DNA of 64,000 nucleotides from contig NZ_AP029048.1 of the NCBI RefSeq assembly GCF_040371545.1, positions 372,001 to 436,000 of the forward strand, in the 5' to 3' direction. How positions within the stretch are numbered: position 1 is the first letter of the stretch; each line of letters opens with the position of its first letter. This document shows positions 3,588 to 49,148 of the stretch, piece after piece. The notes beneath the pieces were generated by a model. That model had not been told where the DNA came from. It was given only the letters and a program-made list of their open reading frames with translations, and did not search any database. Made by a program: the position numbers and the translations under genes. The stretch comes from Synechococcus sp. M16CYN (GTDB lineage Bacteria > Cyanobacteriota > Cyanobacteriia > PCC-6307 > Cyanobiaceae).

Positions 3588-4594
3588 TCAGAGAGCGTGT
3601 ACTGGTATTGAACTTTGGCGCCTAAAGGTCCGCGGCGCAAATAGTCGCTTCTTTTTTTACTGCCGCATACAACCTGGGGTAAAAACACTTAATAAGAGCA
3701 CGGTATCTATCGTTAGTTCATCAAAGATCACAGTACCTCATGGTTGTTGCTGGCGAGACTCAGATCGCTTGGCAGCGCTGGTCATGTCAGTCCAACCATC
3801 AGAGAATTCTAGAACTAAGGCGTCCCAAAGCCAGTCCGATCATCACATCTAAACGCACTCTTCTTCTTTGATTCCGTTAGTTTCTCTACTTTAAGGTTGA
3901 TAAGTTATTAATCTGAAGAGTAATGGCGTTGCTGCTAGTCAGATGTCAGTTAACAGTTCCTAAGCTTCGAATTGAAATTGTGATAGGTTATTTTTGTATA
4001 GTTCTAATAACCAAGATCTGCGAGATAATCCAAGTGTGCAGATGTTTAGATTTTTTCGTTATTGTGTTACGGCTTTGAATAATTTGCGGATATAAAAACT
4101 GTGTTGAAGGGCATTTATTCTAAAAGTAATTTTTCTGTTTTTCGGCTGTAATCAACCAATTTATATCAATTTTTCGAATTTCAAGATAATTGAAGAGATT
4201 GAGTTGTTCATATAGCGCAAAAGTGCTGCTATATACAATAGTTTACTTTATGGCATAAAATTTCGATATTATTTTTTAGTTTCTAGTAACCAGTTTTATT
4301 GCTAAGAATAAAAAGTATTTCAACAAAATTAGGCGAATAAAAGTTCCGTAAGATAATGTAATTTTCTACATAATTAGACTAAGTAAATAACTAGATTAAT
4401 TATATTTTTAGCTATTTATGCGTAACTTTATTTAGAAAAACAATATTAGTAGCTACAATTGTAATTTTGATACAAATCAAAATTACATTATATAAAGAAG
4501 GTAGGTTTAGATTAGCGAGTAAAAGCTTAGAAGCTATTGCAAACTTAATTTTTAACATGTTACTCTAAAGTTTATAGAATTTATTGAGCAAAGG
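3588..4594. other. AT-rich spacer, no confident gene
   Basis: About 1 kb between divergently read genes. The first 280 bases are less AT-rich and include a 43-codon ATG-initiated frame at 3740-3871 on the plus strand (starts MVVAGETQIAWQRW) that looks coding-like but is unrecognised; it may be a very short gene or a gene remnant. From about 3900 to 4570 the sequence is strongly AT-rich with no open frame. Just before 4595 there is an AAAGGATG ribosome site for the next gene. Confidence 0.4.
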
Positions 4595-11534: not shown

Positions 11535-12587
11535 GTGCTGTTTCGTCGTTTTCAGCTGTCGCGTGATATCGGCATCGACCTTGGCACTGCTAATACCTTA
11601 ATTTATGTCTCTGGTCGAGGCATTGTTTTGCAGGAGCCCTCTGTAGTGGCGCTCGATTTAGAGCGGGGTACCACTTTGGCCGTGGGCGATGAAGCAAAAT
11701 TGATGTTGGGTCGTACCCCTAGCAACATTCGTGCCGTTCGTCCATTGAGAGACGGTGTAATCGCTGATTTCGATGCGGCCGAGCAAATGCTTAAGACCTT
11801 CATTGCCAAGGGCAATGAAGGTCGTGGCATCTTGGCGCCTCGTTTAGTAGTAGGGATTCCAAGCGGCGTTACCGGTGTAGAACGCCGTGCTGTTCGTGAA
11901 GCTGGAATGGCAGGTGCTCGAGAGGTTCACTTAATTGATGAGCCTGTGGCAGCTGCAATCGGCGCTGGTCTTCCCGTCACCGAACCAGTAGGCACAATGA
12001 TTGTGGATATCGGAGGCGGTACTGCCGAAGTGGCAGTAATTAGTCTTGGCGGCACAGTTCTCAGTGAATCAGTACGAGTAGCTGGAGACGAGATTAGTGA
12101 TGCGATTGGTGTATACCTAAAAAAGGTGCACAACATGGTGGTAGGTGAGCGCACCGCGGAGGACATCAAGATTCGGATCGGTTCCGCCTTTTTAGATGAT
12201 GAGTTTGATCAGCAATCAATGGATGTACGCGGTCTACATTTGGTTTCCGGACTTCCTCGAACCATCAATCTCAAGGCTGGCGACTTGCGTGAGGCGATTG
12301 CTGAGCCTCTGAATGTAATCGTAGAGGCGGTGAAACGCACCCTGGAGCGTACACCGCCAGAATTGGCTGCTGACATCGTTGACCGCGGTATCATGTTAGC
12401 CGGCGGTGGTGCATTAGTACGCGGTATCAGTGACTTAATTAGTCATGAGACCGGCATTTTTGTTCATATTGCTGAAGATCCTCTGTTGTGCGTTGTGAAT
12501 GGTTGTGGTCAAGTGTTAGAGGATTGGGAACGTCTGAAGCGGGTAGTGGATACGCCAGAGTTTGTCCGTTCTACGTCTAACGCCTGA
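11535..12587 (+). CDS. mreB: Rod shape-determining protein MreB
   Basis: An actin-like ATPase, 350 residues, that polymerises under the membrane and guides side-wall peptidoglycan synthesis. Phosphate-1 loop is DIGIDLGTANTLIYV near residues 10-24, phosphate-2 loop IVDIGGGTAEVAVISLGG near 157, and the adenosine site LAGGGALVRGISDL near 288. It starts with GTG (LFRRFQLSRDIGID). It leads a four-gene run mreB-mreC-mreD-lipoprotein with gaps of 4, 2 and -4 bases. Its retention suggests a rod- or oval-shaped cell. Confidence 0.96.
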   Translation: MLFRRFQLSRDIGIDLGTANTLIYVSGRGIVLQEPSVVALDLERGTTLAVGDEAKLMLGRTPSNIRAVRPLRDGVIADFDAAEQMLKTFIAKGNEGRGILAPRLVVGIPSGVTGVERRAVREAGMAGAREVHLIDEPVAAAIGAGLPVTEPVGTMIVDIGGGTAEVAVISLGGTVLSESVRVAGDEISDAIGVYLKKVHNMVVGERTAEDIKIRIGSAFLDDEFDQQSMDVRGLHLVSGLPRTINLKAGDLREAIAEPLNVIVEAVKRTLERTPPELAADIVDRGIMLAGGGALVRGISDLISHETGIFVHIAEDPLLCVVNGCGQVLEDWERLKRVVDTPEFVRSTSNA

Positions 12588-17870: not shown

Positions 17871-18356
17871 TCACAATCCCGAGTCTTCACGAAGTTTTTG
17901 TAACTCCAGTTCTGCATAAAACAGCGCCCAATCTTTGTCTAAATCAGAAGAGCCGGGCGCTTTTTGTTGAGTTTGCAAATCCAGCAATTGTTGCTCTACT
18001 TCCCTAAAGCGACGCCCTAAATCATCGAAGTCATTCCAGAGTTGACGTCCCCGCTCCATTAATCTATGGAGATATTGATCAGCGCGACTAGCCAGTTCAG
18101 TAGCGTTAGCTTGCCGGGCTCTATCTAACCGATGACGCCAAGTGTTTACATCCTCAGCCAGTTGCAATAGTTGCTTGCGCTGATGCTCTGCGCTTTGTTG
18201 TAGTTGCTGCCGCTGCCGCTGCAAGGCTTGTACCCGATCACAATTGCGTTGCTCTCGGAATAGCTGTTCTTGTGTTGTACTACTACTGCGTAAGAGATCA
18301 GCTAGACGTTGATCTAGCTGATCTAGCTGCAGTTCCAGCTGTTCCAACCAACTCAC
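17871..18356 (-). CDS. Coiled-coil protein, cyanobacterial family
   Basis: A 161-residue, strongly helical protein made almost entirely of heptad-like Gln/Leu/Arg/Glu repeats, suggesting one long coiled coil. No catalytic motif, signal peptide or membrane span. It starts with GTG at 18356, overlapping the stop of the upstream 79-residue gene by four bases. I recall that such a pair is sometimes labelled 'hercynine metabolism protein' in picocyanobacteria, but this is from memory and nothing in the sequence proves it. Probably a structural or partner-binding protein acting with its neighbour. Confidence 0.6.
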   Translation of the reverse strand: MSWLEQLELQLDQLDQRLADLLRSSSTTQEQLFREQRNCDRVQALQRQRQQLQQSAEHQRKQLLQLAEDVNTWRHRLDRARQANATELASRADQYLHRLMERGRQLWNDFDDLGRRFREVEQQLLDLQTQQKAPGSSDLDKDWALFYAELELQKLREDSGL

Positions 18357-27533: not shown

Positions 27534-28781
27534 TCAACCAAAGCGTCGAAAGGCGAGGCAAACGTTGTGTCCACCGAAGCCAAAAGAGTTAGACAACACT
27601 GTCGCCAGTGCCTGGTCTCGTGCCGCGTTAGGCACTATATCCAGATCACAATTAGGATCGGGACTGGTGTGATTAATAGTTGGTGGGACGACACCGTGCT
27701 TCAGAGCTAATACGCAGGCCACAGCTTCGATGCCACCAGACCCACCTAAAAGATGGCCGGTCATCGATTTGGTAGAGCTCACTGGGATCTGCAGCGCACG
27801 AGACCCAAGAGCACTCTTGATCGCCGCGGTTTCATTTTTGTCGTTAGCGGGGGTGCTGGTGCCGTGGGCGTTTACGTAATCCACTGTATCCGCTTCGATG
27901 GCGCCGTCCTCTAGGGCTAGTCGCATCGCCTGCGCACCGCCCACACCACCCGGAGTGGGAGAGGTGATGTGGTGTGCATCGCAAGTCATCCCGTAGCCAA
28001 CGACCTCGCCCAGAACGGTGGCGTCACGAGCTTCGGCATGTTCAAGGGTTTCTAGCACTAATATGCCAGCTCCTTCACCAATTACGAAGCCGTCGCGCTC
28101 TTTATCGAAGGGACGACTGGCTGTAGTGGGGTCATCGTTACGGAAAGACAGTGCCTTTGCGCTGGCGAAACCGGCAACCCCTAACGGTGTAATGGCAGAT
28201 TCGGCACCACCGCAAACCATCGCGTCCGCTTTGCCTAGCTGCAACAAACGGAAGGCATCACCGATGGCATTGGAGCCGGCCGCGCAAGCTGTAGCAACTG
28301 CGGAGCTAGGCCCTTTAGTACCTAGGGCAATCGCAGCTAGGCCAGAAGCCATGTTTGGTATCATCATCGGCACCGTGAACGGGCTTACCCGATCTGGACC
28401 TTTGCTGTACAGCACATTGGTCTGGGTTTCCATCGTAAGCATACCGCCCACTCCGGAGCCAATGCTCATACCGATTCGGTCAGTATTGGCATCCGTGATT
28501 TCTAAACCGGCGTGAGCGATAGCCTGTTTGGCGGCTACCACACCGAACTTACAGAAGCGATCCCAACGCTTGGCTTCTTTGGGCTCAATGAAACCTACAG
28601 GGTCAAAATCTTTCACTTCAGCCGCAAATCGGCAGGCATAGTTCGAGGCATCGAATAGAGTAATCCCATCGACGCCGTTGCGTCCGGAGGTCAGACCACT
28701 CCAGTAATCCTGAACTGTGTTGCCTATCGGTGTAACTGCGCCGAGACCAGTGATAACGACGCGATGGAAATCTCCCACCAT
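27534..28781 (-). CDS. fabF: Beta-ketoacyl-ACP synthase II
   Basis: FabF, about 415 residues, condenses malonyl-ACP with growing acyl-ACP in type II fatty-acid synthesis. The active-site Cys lies in AVATACAAGSNAIGDAFRL, the two His in NAHGTSTPANDKNETAAI and KSMTGHLLGGSGGIEAV. Start chosen as ATG 28781 (MVGDFHRVVITGLGAVTPIG); a GTG four codons earlier is possible. It sits immediately downstream of acpP, eight bases apart, the usual fab gene order in cyanobacteria. Confidence 0.96.
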   Translation of the reverse strand: MVGDFHRVVITGLGAVTPIGNTVQDYWSGLTSGRNGVDGITLFDASNYACRFAAEVKDFDPVGFIEPKEAKRWDRFCKFGVVAAKQAIAHAGLEITDANTDRIGMSIGSGVGGMLTMETQTNVLYSKGPDRVSPFTVPMMIPNMASGLAAIALGTKGPSSAVATACAAGSNAIGDAFRLLQLGKADAMVCGGAESAITPLGVAGFASAKALSFRNDDPTTASRPFDKERDGFVIGEGAGILVLETLEHAEARDATVLGEVVGYGMTCDAHHITSPTPGGVGGAQAMRLALEDGAIEADTVDYVNAHGTSTPANDKNETAAIKSALGSRALQIPVSSTKSMTGHLLGGSGGIEAVACVLALKHGVVPPTINHTSPDPNCDLDIVPNAARDQALATVLSNSFGFGGHNVCLAFRRFG

Positions 28782-28789
28782 GCCGATCC

Positions 28790-29032
28790 TCAAGCCTGTT
28801 TGTCTTTGATGTACTTAACCGCGTCGCCGACGGTAAGGATTCCCTCTGCAGATTCGTCAGGGATCTCGACGTCAAAGGCTTCTTCCAGAGCCATCACTAA
28901 TTCCACAGTATCAAGGGAGTCAGCACCCAAGTCGTTTTGAAAATTGGATTCCGACTTTACCTCGCCAGCGTCGACGCTGAGTTGTTCCGCGACGATAGAA
29001 CGGACTTTCTCGAGGATCGCTTCCTGGGACAT
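28790..29032 (-). CDS. acpP: Acyl carrier protein
   Basis: An 80-residue ACP. The phosphopantetheine Ser is in [19 protein letters not shown] (DSL motif, near residue 39). It is strongly acidic, as in the family. The start is ATG 29032 ([20 protein letters not shown]); the frame is open eight codons further but those are not conserved. The ACP carries intermediates for fabF, encoded next. It is divergent from psaC, with a roughly 150-base shared promoter region. Confidence 0.96.
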
Positions 29033-29076
29033 AGCAGTGGCAACGGGCCTCCGCATCTTACGGGCAAGGCCTGTAA

Positions 29077-29427
<351 letters not shown>

Positions 29428-29455
29428 GACCCAGTTGAGTGACGTGTTTTAACTT

Positions 29456-29491
29456 ATAAGCTCAGCCCGGCTTTGTCCGGGCTGAGCTTAT
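29456..29491 (+). terminator. Perfect 15-bp hairpin after psaC, overlapping glmS start
   Basis: An exact 15-base inverted repeat (29456-29470 and 29477-29491) with a six-base loop. The core is GCTCAGCCCGG / CCGGGCTGAGC. It is 28 bases after the psaC stop, so it could act as a psaC transcript terminator or 3' stabiliser, but no U-run follows. Its right arm contains the first two bases of the glmS ATG and the bases where the ribosome site would lie. Confidence 0.75.
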
Positions 29492-31379
29492 GTGCGGAAT
29501 CGTTGCCCTAGTTGGCTCTCGTGAGGCGGCGTTTCAGTTGCTCGACGGGTTGCGTCAGCTGGAATATCGTGGTTATGATTCAGCAGGCATTGCGACGGTA
29601 GATGCAAGCGGGCGTATTACCTGTCTAAAAACCGAGGGCAAGTTAATCAATCTCACCGCTCGGGTCGACGAACAGGGAGCTCCAGGCCGGTGCGGTATCG
29701 GCCATACTCGCTGGGCTACTCATGGCAAACCAGAAGAGCGCAACGCCCATCCTCATTGCAGCGTGGACGGGGCTGTGGCAGTGGTACAAAACGGCATCAT
29801 TGAAAACTACCGCAACCTACGCGAAACACTGCAAGCTAATGGGGCAGTGTTTTTGTCAGAAACTGATACCGAAGTCATCCCCCATTTGATTAGCGCAGAG
29901 CTAAGCCGATGGCTTGCTTCTGGTGAAACAGCAAGCGGCACGCTATTGCTGCAGGTTGTACAGACGGTGTTACCACAGCTGCAGGGGGCTTATGCCTTGG
30001 CTGTAATATGGAAGCAAGCCCCCGGCGCTCTCGTGGTAGCCCGTAAAATAGCACCACTGCTGATTGGGTTAGGGGAGGGAGAGTTTCTTTGTGCCAGCGA
30101 TACGCCGGCCTTAGCCAGTTTCACCCGCACGATACTTCCGATGGAGGATGGTGAGGTGGCCTTGCTATCACCCTTAGGGGTTGAACTCTACAACACCCAG
30201 GGGGAACGCCAGCAACGGATGCCGACTCTGCTGACGGGTGCGGACCACGTGGCTGACAAGCGTGGGTTTCGCCATTTCATGCTGAAGGAAATCCATGAAC
30301 AGCCAGAAATAGCTGAACTTTGGGTGACTCGTCATCTCCCTCAGGGGCTAACAGCGCAGATGCCTGTGGCACTACCTCTCGAAACTTCCTTTTACAGAGA
30401 CATTGAGCGGGTCGAGATCCTAGCTTGCGGCACCAGCCGCCACGCTGCTCTGGTGGGGGCCTACCTACTTGAGCAATTCGCAGGACTTCCCACTACGGTT
30501 TACTATGCCAGCGAATTCCGCTACGCCCCGCCACCATTGGCGCCGAACACACTCACCATCGGTGTGACGCAGTCAGGTGAAACCGCGGATACCTTAGCTG
30601 CTCTGACGATGGAAGCCAAGCGTCGGCGAGCACATGGTGACCCAGCCTATGCGCCCCGCCAGTTGGGGGTGACCAATCGACCGGAGAGTTCTCTCTCTCG
30701 ACAGATGCCACACATCCTTGATATCGGTGCCGGTATAGAGATTGGCGTAGCAGCAACTAAAACGTTTCTTGGTCAATTATTAACGTTTTACGGTCTTGCC
30801 ATGGCCTTTGCGGCCAAACGATCTAGCCGTTCAGCTGATGAAATAAGTGCTTTGGCCGACGAATTGCGAAAGCTACCGGAACAACTTCGAGCTTTAGTAA
30901 ACTTGCACGATCAACGTTGTGCAGGTTTAGCACATCGCTTTGCAGCCATCCAAGATGTGATCTTTCTGGGTCGTGGTATCAACTACCCGATTGCGTTAGA
31001 GGGTGCACTCAAACTTAAGGAAATTAGTTACATTCACGCCGAGGGCTATCCTGCCGGAGAAATGAAGCATGGCCCGATTGCCTTGCTTGATGCACATGTC
31101 CCTGTGGTATCAATTGCCGTGCCAGGTATGGTTTTTGAGAAGGTTCTTAGCAATGCACAAGAGGCTAAAGCCCGCGATGCTCAATTGATTGGTGTGGCCC
31201 CCGAGGGACCTGATACTGCTTTGTTCGATGAGCTTTTGCCAGTGCCCGAGATGAGTGAATGGATCAGCCCCTTGTTCACCGTAATCCCAATGCAGTTGTT
31301 GAGTTACCACATCGCTGCACATCGAGGATTGGACGTAGACCAACCCCGTAACTTGGCCAAGAGCGTTACAGTAGAATGA
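29490..31379 (+). CDS. glmS: Glucosamine-fructose-6-phosphate aminotransferase
   Basis: GlmS, 629 residues, makes glucosamine-6-phosphate from fructose-6-phosphate and glutamine, the first step toward UDP-GlcNAc for peptidoglycan and surface glycans. The N-terminal glutaminase opens MCGIVALVGSREAA with catalytic Cys as the second residue, so the start codon is fixed. Two SIS isomerase domains follow (ACGTSRHAALVGAYLLEQ, SQSGETADTLAAL), and the C-terminus ends in DQPRNLAKSVTVE as expected. No glmS ribozyme was seen. The start codon lies inside a stable hairpin (29456-29491). Confidence 0.96.
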   Translation: MCGIVALVGSREAAFQLLDGLRQLEYRGYDSAGIATVDASGRITCLKTEGKLINLTARVDEQGAPGRCGIGHTRWATHGKPEERNAHPHCSVDGAVAVVQNGIIENYRNLRETLQANGAVFLSETDTEVIPHLISAELSRWLASGETASGTLLLQVVQTVLPQLQGAYALAVIWKQAPGALVVARKIAPLLIGLGEGEFLCASDTPALASFTRTILPMEDGEVALLSPLGVELYNTQGERQQRMPTLLTGADHVADKRGFRHFMLKEIHEQPEIAELWVTRHLPQGLTAQMPVALPLETSFYRDIERVEILACGTSRHAALVGAYLLEQFAGLPTTVYYASEFRYAPPPLAPNTLTIGVTQSGETADTLAALTMEAKRRRAHGDPAYAPRQLGVTNRPESSLSRQMPHILDIGAGIEIGVAATKTFLGQLLTFYGLAMAFAAKRSSRSADEISALADELRKLPEQLRALVNLHDQRCAGLAHRFAAIQDVIFLGRGINYPIALEGALKLKEISYIHAEGYPAGEMKHGPIALLDAHVPVVSIAVPGMVFEKVLSNAQEAKARDAQLIGVAPEGPDTALFDELLPVPEMSEWISPLFTVIPMQLLSYHIAAHRGLDVDQPRNLAKSVTVE

Positions 31380-31404
31380 GATAAACTAAAGTGAGTGGTG
31401 GATT

Positions 31405-32853
31405 TTACTTTTTGGGATCATCCCGGCAATAGTGATCTTCAAAGCGTAGGATATCGTCCTCGCCAAGGTATTCGCCGCTCTGTATCTCGATCAATTCCAC
31501 CGGGATACGTCCCGGATTAGATAGCCGATGTTTGCAGCCCATCGGAATGTAGGTGCTTTGGTTCTCACCTACTAGTTGCTCGTTGCCATCCCGCTCCACC
31601 AACGCTGTTCCCTTCACTACCACCCAATGCTCAGCACGATGGTGGTGCATTTGCAATGATAAACTTGCCCCTGATTTAACAGAAATGCGCTTTACTTGCC
31701 AGCGGTTACCTTCGGTGATACCGGTGTAATAGCCCCAAGGTCGATAAACCTTGCGATGCGCTTTGCCTTCCGAGCTGCCGTCAGCTTCCAGTCGGTTCAC
31801 CACTGACTTGATCGCCTGAGTCTGGGAGCGATCAGCTATCAGTACCGCGTCGTCTGTCTCTACCACCACTAGGTTCTCCACCCCTAACCCAACTATGAGA
31901 CGGTGTTCGCTGCGGAGATAGCAGTTGCTGCTGCCTTGAGCAATCACGCGTCCTTGCAACACATTACCGTCGGGGTCGCGATCAGATGTTTCCCAAAGGG
32001 CGCTCCAACTACCTACATCGCTCCACCCTGCATCGAGGGGTAATACCGAGCCCAGTTCTGTCTTTTCCATGACAGCTACATCAATAGCCACGTTTGGGCA
32101 CTTAGCAAACACAGTCTTTTCTAGGCGCAGAAATCCCATATCGACCCTATCTGGTTCTAGTGCTGCCCGGCAGTAACTCACCATTTCAGGTGCCAAGCGC
32201 TCTAATTCTGCCAACATCGCACCGGCTTGGAAGAGAAACATGCCGCTATTCCATGTGAAACGCCCTGTTGTCAAGAACTGTTCGGCAGTGGCGCGATCTG
32301 GTTTCTCCACAAAACGAATGATCGGAACGTCTTGCAGCGCACCAGCATCAAAAGCTCGGGCTGCTTCTATGTAGCCATAACCAGTTTCCGGTGTCTTAGG
32401 AATAATGCCGAAGGCCACTAATCGACCGTTCTCTGCAGCCAAACGTCCGGCAGTGACCGCGGTGCGAAATTGTTTGGCATCCCGAATAAAATTATCTGCC
32501 GCAAGTACTAGGAGCAGGGGATTATTTCCGTTGGCGGTGGCTTGTAGAGCTGCCACAGTTACCGCAGGAGCTGTGTTGCGTCCCACAGGCTCCAATAGGA
32601 TCGCGTGCGGTTCGACGCCCAGTTGACGCATCTGTTCAGCCACGATGAAGCGGTGATCTTCATTGCAAATCAGCAAAGGAGCCGATAGACCCTCCAAGCC
32701 TTCGAGTCGCTGTTGAGTCTGTTGTAGCAAAGTGGCGTCTCCGTCACCGCTAAGAGGCCAGTACTGCTTGGGGTAGCTCGCGCGCGACAGCGGCCACAAC
32801 CGTGTGCCAGTTCCTCCGCAAAGGATTACAGGAATTAGAGGTGTGGCAGCCAA
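31405..32853 (-). CDS. manC: Mannose-1-phosphate guanylyltransferase / mannose-6-phosphate isomerase
   Basis: A bifunctional enzyme of about 482 residues making GDP-mannose. The nucleotidyltransferase signature is VILCGGTGTRLWPLSRASYP near the N-terminus, with FVEKPDRATAEQFL in the middle. A C-terminal cupin isomerase domain has QMHHHRAEHWVVVKGTALVE with the metal-binding His. I suggest the TTG at 32853 (reads AATPLIPVILCGG) as start; another TTG at 32874 adds seven residues. GDP-mannose would feed the surface glycan genes seen at 53.8-62.8 kb. Confidence 0.92.
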   Translation of the reverse strand: MAATPLIPVILCGGTGTRLWPLSRASYPKQYWPLSGDGDATLLQQTQQRLEGLEGLSAPLLICNEDHRFIVAEQMRQLGVEPHAILLEPVGRNTAPAVTVAALQATANGNNPLLLVLAADNFIRDAKQFRTAVTAGRLAAENGRLVAFGIIPKTPETGYGYIEAARAFDAGALQDVPIIRFVEKPDRATAEQFLTTGRFTWNSGMFLFQAGAMLAELERLAPEMVSYCRAALEPDRVDMGFLRLEKTVFAKCPNVAIDVAVMEKTELGSVLPLDAGWSDVGSWSALWETSDRDPDGNVLQGRVIAQGSSNCYLRSEHRLIVGLGVENLVVVETDDAVLIADRSQTQAIKSVVNRLEADGSSEGKAHRKVYRPWGYYTGITEGNRWQVKRISVKSGASLSLQMHHHRAEHWVVVKGTALVERDGNEQLVGENQSTYIPMGCKHRLSNPGRIPVELIEIQSGEYLGEDDILRFEDHYCRDDPKK

Positions 32854-47885: not shown

Positions 47886-49148
47886 CACAGCCAATAGTTC
47901 CATCGGGTGATACACTGCTTGTCCTCCTTGAAGGTGCCGACGCAGCTGTAAGGTGCAGCCGATGTTAGCGCTGGCTATTATCGACGCTCCCGTACTGCTA
48001 AGGTCAATAGCTTTAATCATTCCCAGCTCAGCGGCTTCCTGCGGCTGTACCAAATTATAAATGCCGGCACTCCCGCAACATATACCTGCCTCCATAGGTT
48101 CTCTCAGCTCCAGATTAGGAATGGCGTTAAGCAGAGTTCGTAACTGTTGCTGAATATTTTGACCATGAATCATGTGACATGCGTCATGTATAGCCACCGC
48201 ACCGGCTATTGGCTTGAGCTGAGTTCGAAAGCTGTCACTGAGGCCCACGTTGGTTAGAAATTCATGTACGTCTGAGACGGTCGTGCGGAAACACTCGCTG
48301 TCTTGGAGGAGCTCGCCATAAGTTTTCATCGTGTGACCACAACCAGATGCCGCTACAATCACTGCGTCTAGTTTTCCGTCGATTCTGTTCATACTCCGCA
48401 CCAGAGCAGATGCCAGTTCGCGGGTAAGCGACATCTTTCCTTGGTGATGGCTTACAGCTCCACAGCAGCCCTGATCAGGCGGTAGGACAACCTCGAAACC
48501 ATTGGCTTGTAGAACCTTCACCGTTGCAATGTTGACAGAAGGATCGAAGCACCGCTGGACACACCCCAACAGAAATGACACTCGACCGCGGCGTGGTCCG
48601 ATCGCAGGATTGATCGTAGGTATTAGATCGTCGAATGCGCTGGCTGTAAGGACTGGTAACAGCAGTTCCATCGCTTCAATTTCAGGGCCGAATAACCGAG
48701 TGAGACCGGTGCAACGAGCAACTTTTTGAAGGAGGGTGCCGGTGTAAAGCCGTACTAGATGGAGTAAAGTTCGAAGTCGACGGGGGTAAGGTAAAACCCA
48801 GAGCAACAGCTGACGAAGACTGATTTGCCAGATGCTGCGCAGCCCAATGCTATTGAGCTTAGGACGTATAGCTTCAATCAGTTGGTCGTAACGAACGCCG
48901 GAGGGACAAGCCGTCACGCAGGCATAACAGCTTAAGCAAGTGTCGAAATGGCCGGCAACAGTAGCATCAAATCCCAGCTCACCGGCTTCGATCGCCCGCA
49001 GGGCGTGGATGCGACCACGGGGTGAATCCATCTCGCTAGCTAACACCCGATAGCTAGCGCAGGTGGATAGACAGAAGCCACAGTGTACACAGGGATCTGT
49101 TAATTCAGTAGGGAACTTGGGGGGTCGAGTGGATGCGTTAGACAGCAT
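47853..49148 (-). CDS. glcF: Glycolate dehydrogenase iron-sulfur subunit GlcF
   Basis: A 431-residue iron-sulfur protein of the glycolate dehydrogenase complex. Two N-terminal [4Fe-4S] motifs: CVHCGFCLSTC and CLSCYACVTACP. Two CCG-type domains follow, with GCVQRCFDPSVN, PDQGCCGAVSHHQG, and ICCGSAGIYNL. Full length. It overlaps the end of the sugar-acid kinase tail-to-tail. With GlcE it passes electrons from glycolate to the quinone pool. Confidence 0.9.
   Translation of the reverse strand: MLSNASTRPPKFPTELTDPCVHCGFCLSTCASYRVLASEMDSPRGRIHALRAIEAGELGFDATVAGHFDTCLSCYACVTACPSGVRYDQLIEAIRPKLNSIGLRSIWQISLRQLLLWVLPYPRRLRTLLHLVRLYTGTLLQKVARCTGLTRLFGPEIEAMELLLPVLTASAFDDLIPTINPAIGPRRGRVSFLLGCVQRCFDPSVNIATVKVLQANGFEVVLPPDQGCCGAVSHHQGKMSLTRELASALVRSMNRIDGKLDAVIVAASGCGHTMKTYGELLQDSECFRTTVSDVHEFLTNVGLSDSFRTQLKPIAGAVAIHDACHMIHGQNIQQQLRTLLNAIPNLELREPMEAGICCGSAGIYNLVQPQEAAELGMIKAIDLSSTGASIIASANIGCTLQLRRHLQGGQAVYHPMELLAVSAGLHSLPSL

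Follow-up and report, generated by a model that had tools for sequence, protein, structure and literature searches.

A psaC terminator probably rewritten in one step into a perfect hairpin over the glmS start codon of Synechococcus sp. M16CYN

In intrinsic termination the T-tract is what pauses the polymerase, and hairpins of another class, among them RNA thermometers and the leaders of read-through transcripts, sequester start codons. Inverted repeats can themselves be reshaped by quasipalindrome correction, or template switching, for which studies on E. coli, yeast and RNA genes describe clustered changes that match the reverse complement of the other arm (PMC8794818, PMC7202029, PMC8604942); in one of these sources such switching is proposed to yield perfect stems in a single event (PMC8794818). 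Here we describe a locus that bears on all three subjects, an exact hairpin between psaC and glmS in a 64,000-nucleotide stretch of the Synechococcus sp. M16CYN genome (contig NZ_AP029048.1, positions 372,001 to 436,000 of the forward strand; hereafter the window, whose first base is position 1). Comparison with related genomes leads us to interpret the feature, with a probability of about 0.7, as the psaC intrinsic terminator whose T-tract was rewritten in one step, together with the consequences for psaC and glmS expression discussed below, and the best reading of the change itself is that one template switch replaced the T-tract. No treatment of a psaC-glmS terminator was found in the literature by title or abstract.

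A preliminary description of this DNA had pointed to a perfect 15-bp stem with a six-base loop after psaC, to a right arm reaching into the glmS ATG and to the absence of a U-run, and all three observations are borne out. The gap between psaC and glmS is 62 nt, and the hairpin lies within it and overlaps the glmS start; its arms, ATAAGCTCAGCCCGG (29456-29470) and CCGGGCTGAGCTTAT (29477-29491), were found by repeat search to be 15 nt each and 100% complementary around the 6-nt loop CTTTGT, the last two bases of the right arm being the A and T of the glmS ATG (29490-29492). When the window was shuffled 40 times by a first-order Markov model, 12-bp stems occurred at 0.025 per window and longer ones not at all, and the predicted RNA fold of 29428-29530 (103 nt) has a free energy of -44.6 kcal/mol, with a z-score of -4.04 against 200 shuffles. 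The elements referred to in the text are as follows.

29182..29427, + strand: psaC, photosystem I iron-sulfur subunit, 81 amino acids (open reading frame; protein 100% identical in genomes G022 and G027)
29456..29463, + strand: box ATAAGCTC next to the terminator of psaC, conserved among relatives (comparison of loci)
29457-29462, + strand: TAAGCT, candidate -10 element of glmS
29456..29470, + strand: left arm of the hairpin, ancestral sequence (repeat search and relatives)
29471..29476, + strand: loop CTTTGT; the C-G pair innermost in the stem of relatives is missing here (repeat search and relatives)
29477..29491, + strand: right arm of the hairpin (repeat search and relatives), made up of CCGGGC at 29477-29482 (ancestral), TGAGCTT at 29483-29489 (in place of the T-tract) and AT of the start codon at 29490-29491
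29484..29487, + strand: GAGC, where G032 and others have TTTT; these four adjacent changed bases pair with GCTC of the box (alignment)
29490..31379, + strand: a gene open throughout, which we take to be glmS, glutamine-fructose-6-phosphate transaminase, 629 amino acids, MCGIVALVGS..., its start fixed by Met-Cys, the Cys presumably being the catalytic residue

The search with glmS returned 589 related stretches, the best among those listed being 80% identical. As expected of an intrinsic terminator, psaC is followed by a G+C-rich hairpin (a 15-bp stem with inner CCCGG/CCGGG), but a T-tract, taken as at least four T in the eight bases after the stem, is missing: the inner stem is followed by GAGCTTAT, with three T in eight, and the full 15-bp stem by GTGCGGAA. 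Accordingly no T-run lies 3' of the hairpin on the + strand, and a terminator scan reports nothing there on that strand. Because the T-tract is present in the genus mates and absent here, the hairpin is now no canonical terminator. A comparison with Rfam gave no match up to an E-value of 1 in 28500-31500, neither to a glmS ribozyme nor to any other known cis-regulatory RNA.

The ancestral state of the junction is fixed by a large set of relatives. The genus set comprised 33 other genomes, of which 26 have a usable psaC locus, the remaining seven (53-83% complete) being without one. In all 26, glmS directly follows psaC (25 by tblastn; L013, which ends just past the glmS start, by eye), and every one of these junctions consists of the box, a G+C stem with the form GCCCGGC...GCCGGGC and a run of four or more T, with 0-4 nt between the T-tract and the glmS ATG; the stretch directly 5' of the ATG is T-tract, with no Shine-Dalgarno site. 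The box reads ATAAGCTC in 25 of the 26 and ATAAACTC in G027, and is usually preceded by a C. M16CYN shares with this terminator its place, the inner G+C stem and the upstream box, but differs in that the T-tract is overwritten and the stem, now of 15 pairs, reaches over the glmS start. A pattern search for the palindrome that allowed up to three mismatches found it in one of the 34 genus genomes, M16CYN alone, and the predicted free energy of the terminator hairpin is -28.5 in M16CYN against -12.2 to -18.4 in the nine relatives folded.

The same picture extends to the family, where 300 genomes were searched with a pattern that starts at the box and ends at ATGTGYGG after a spacer of 22-52 bases; it misses genomes whose box differs or whose gap is longer, and conservation of the box is not countable from it. 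It returned 107 rows from 106 genomes, and 101 sites were left after six rows judged to be other sites had been dropped. By script 96 of the 101 pass the T-tract test; G329, G333 and G278 fail the script's strict rule for stem and tail, yet are T-rich when read, and a proper T-tract is missing at only two sites, those of G105 and M16CYN, with a palindrome in its place in M16CYN alone. Among 21 named picocyanobacterial loci with psaC, the box ATAAGCTC is found in 10 and ATAAGATC in one more, and box, stem and T-tract occur together in 10 (the box once being ATAAGATC).

The box remains constant in 25 of the 26 genus mates and 10 of the 21 named loci although neighbouring bases vary. In several Cyanobium-like loci with a longer gap the ATG lies farther off and the box is still beside the stem, for which reason an explanation of the box by pairing of CATA with the start codon was rejected. 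Two loci have kept the box and lost the T-tract by other routes, G105 (C169:38198-38259) with another stem and a C-rich tail, and L046 with a shortened stem. The idea that the hairpin is a spreading repeat was likewise rejected, as the box followed by NGCC occurs only once elsewhere in the genome and no similar hairpin was found by eye.

The nature of the change is clearest in the comparison with G032, whose junction (...GCCGGGCTTTTTTTATG) is equal in length to that of M16CYN (...TCCGGGCTGAGCTTATG) and differs mainly by TTTTTTT becoming TGAGCTT. The four adjacent changes, TTTT to GAGC, are the exact reverse complement of GCTC in the box and close a bubble in an older structure: in RNAfold predictions seven of nine relatives fold as an imperfect inverted repeat with a 5-pair outer helix, a bubble and an inner stem of 7-8 pairs, G022 and G012 having the inner stem alone. 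The left arm and inner stem are ancestral, then, and the outer pairs that complete the perfect 15-bp palindrome across the ATG are seen in M16CYN alone. Conservation or covariation of the start-codon stem was not found, the perfect outer stem being present in this genome only, and no compensatory change of the sort that the preliminary description had proposed to look for, one that would preserve pairing over the start codon, was seen in relatives. M16CYN has lost the C-G pair innermost in its relatives' stem while gaining outer pairs, a change that selection for stability would not favour. What is seen is what template switching would be expected to leave: an imperfect inverted repeat in the ancestor and, within it, adjacent changes that reproduce the opposite arm in reverse complement. 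The quasipalindrome corrections described elsewhere share this pattern; the M16CYN case differs in that the target is a terminator T-tract at a start codon and in that ancestry is read from a comparison of species, without a mutation assay. The proposed path would begin with a quasipalindrome of outer ATAA/TTAT pairs, a GCTC/TTTT bubble and the inner G+C stem, on which the nascent strand would fold back, use a few bases of the left arm as template and return, turning TTTT into GAGC. The loss looks local, since terminator-like sites with a T-tract are as common in M16CYN (17 per 400 kb) as in relatives (19 and 15; shuffled controls 6, 7 and 9).

With the T-tract that pauses the polymerase gone, and with rich U-tracts going together with less read-through, psaC termination is probably weaker in M16CYN. 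The latter association comes from Synechococcus elongatus, for which less read-through is reported with richer or longer U-tracts and also that most transcription units are not ended by known pathways (PMC13289151), so that loss of the T-tract need not harm. Even so, the psaC 3' end may be marked or protected by the long stem.

As to glmS, it had been suggested that a read-through psaC RNA would bury its start, and the predicted folding agrees, the A, U and G of the AUG being unpaired with probabilities of 0.01, 0.04 and 0.14. A short RNA was further expected to free the start, and for an RNA starting 12-16 bases into the unit, inside the left arm, the prediction upholds this for the A and U (0.84-0.98 unpaired) and not for the G (0.14-0.25). 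Read-through RNA would then start glmS translation with difficulty, and glmS would be made from a start point of its own inside or after the left arm; such a start within the gap is probable because the gap is short. TAAGCT in the box fits TANNNT, a loose cyanobacterial -10 pattern, and our guess from the letters is that it could serve as the -10 element of glmS; the accessible text of the literature on transcription start sites does not name the psaC-glmS pair. Like start-codon-sequestering hairpins, the M16CYN stem is predicted to bury the AUG when the transcript is long, but it differs from them in not being conserved and in giving no sign of regulated opening. Special regulation of glmS by the stem, as first envisaged, is not sustained, since the relatives lack the extended stem and have an ordinary T-tract terminator at all 26 readable genus-mate junctions, and the start-codon burial is no speciality of M16CYN: the read-through RNA of G032, with an ordinary T-tract, is predicted to bury the glmS start fully (0.00 for all three bases), the other eight relatives ranging from 0.02 to 0.96. 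A dedicated glmS regulator is unsupported because only this genome has the extended stem, and the regulatory interpretation of the preliminary description is, taken as a whole, partly supported.

Several observations weigh against a single rewriting event and its supposed consequences. In the glmS tree (45 rows) M16CYN groups with G006, G014 and G027, and these nearest relatives are just 84-86% identical in the glmS protein over about 480 residues, so that a stepwise path of four separate point changes is possible. The loop and the bases preceding the box have changed as well, the junction differs in length by 2 nt from those of the three closest mates (G006 and G014 longer, G027 shorter), and the four-base match is in itself weak, at 1 in 256. 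The T-tract is also absent elsewhere, in L046 (with the box kept) and in G105, and among the 21 named loci L043, L045, L049 and seven from Prochlorococcus are without the unit of box, stem and T-tract. A consensus promoter scan detected no promoter at the junction and so lends no support to a separate glmS promoter.

The hairpin is one of many perfect palindromes in this genome. In 400 kb sampled from M16CYN there are 24 perfect short-loop stems of at least 12 bp (the longest of 35 bp), against four in 400 kb of G006, and stems of at least 16 bp number 10 in the sample and none in 800 kb of six genus mates. By a crude greedy measure, 20 of the 24 lie outside open reading frames (ORFs) of at least 100 amino acids, and DNA outside such ORFs makes up 30% of the M16CYN sample against 13% in G006. 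A palindrome-forming process that hits genes too was rejected, since stems of at least 11 bp are as dense inside ORFs as in G006 (2.5 and 2.0 per 100 kb) and the excess lies outside them (20.6 against 8.0). The palindromes are unlike one another in sequence, and 25 of 32 stems of at least 11 bp are without a T-tract; examples are L134:13817-13896, L127:3159-3213, L135:568-619 and L128:871-920, and in the window 4460-4487, 11795-11823 and 18295-18324. The one at 11795, in mreB, aligns in full to relatives with substitutions scattered over both arms, that at 18295 aligns in part only and that at 4460 not at all, and in a 9-bp palindrome at 49034 both arms have changed; none of these four is a clean template switch.

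Single-strand exonucleases suppress template switching in E. coli, a role not stated in the literature examined, and their loss was considered as a cause. Among 19 near-complete genus genomes M16CYN alone gives no match to xseA (exonuclease VII large subunit) and is also the exception to recJ, which is above the cut-off in the other 18, at first sight a remarkably good fit. A recJ remnant of weak, broken matches with stops is present in M16CYN at L249:9349-10830 (C1, about 1267349-1268830), with the HAD-like and YkgJ-like genes, the neighbours of recJ in G006, on either side. In genus g46 the 18 listed genomes (G137-G154) are without both genes and, among those listed, G134 lacks xseA and keeps recJ. 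Loss of recJ and xseA as the cause was rejected, as the family comparison spoke against it. Stems of at least 12 bp per 100 kb number 6.0 in M16CYN and 0-1.2 in six genus mates; 0, 1.2 and 0 in three g46 genomes lacking both genes and 3.8 in G134; and, with both genes present, 5.0 in G121, 5.0 in G063, 3.8 in G229, 2.5 in G225 and 0 in G241 and G243, most of these samples being of 80 kb, so that single counts are small. A search for sbcD, over the cut-off in one of the 34 genus genomes with weaker matches in 11 more, was uninformative.

Whole-genome amplification can create inverted chimeras, and the M16CYN genome (1,957,399 bases in two contigs, the larger of 1,940,073 bases) very probably represents CregCyn, a cyanobacterium with a reduced genome that lives in symbiosis with the dinoflagellate Citharistes regius, and very probably derives from amplified single host cells. 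The CregCyn chromosome measures 1.94 Mbp and its plasmid about 17 kbp, and the genome was obtained from amplified single host cells by REPLI-g amplification and hybrid assembly (PMC11150560). The palindrome excess as a whole may be such an artefact. For the junction itself an origin in amplification or assembly is very unlikely even with so many other palindromes in the genome, because psaC and glmS are collinear on both sides and the length is kept where a simple chimera would invert a flank; all cyanobacterial sequences are reported from two other cells, though not this site specifically (PMC11150560), and G121, a one-contig genome of another genus for which the method of origin is not known, carries a similar load (5.0 against 6.0 per 100 kb). 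It is doubtful, too, that lineage-wide template switching is turning imperfect repeats perfect and has here converted a terminator into a translational lock with a glmS promoter in the left arm.

The remaining alternatives concern function. If selection had built the extended stem stepwise to lock or switch glmS translation, read-through RNA would stay silent and glmS would be turned on by opening of the stem (through temperature, a protein or a small RNA) or by a short transcript of its own; this would fit the perfect 15-bp stem and the predictions for the start codon, which is buried in the read-through RNA but mostly free in the short one. We hold it unlikely, the extended stem being missing from all 26 readable genus-mate junctions, the loop-closing pair lost, no Rfam family matching and G032 burying its start codon equally with an ordinary terminator. 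Somewhat less improbable, and on a par with the lineage-wide process, is that the hairpin is still a plain terminator or a protector of the psaC mRNA 3' end, the T-tract being dispensable in cyanobacteria and any effect on glmS incidental. Some relatives do live without a T-tract at the junction (L046, L049 and G105), but of the 101 sites that the pattern found, 99 retain the tract (96 as judged by script, three by reading), and the S. elongatus study links longer, richer U-tracts to less read-through and finds strong structure missing at more than half of the ends that have no U-tract (PMC13289151).

We therefore favor the one-step rewriting of the psaC terminator, a change likely to have been fixed by drift, the symbiont population being small. 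A regulator of a new kind is not shown; most likely, template switching in a symbiont genome that is shrinking has rewritten, in this lineage only, a terminator that relatives conserve. The junction is a concrete example of how a single mutation can remove the T-tract downstream of a photosynthesis gene and at once cover the start codon of the gene that follows, and it cautions that a perfect hairpin over a start codon need not mean a regulator. The reduced genome of such a symbiont is a place in which to study the decay of terminators under weak selection.
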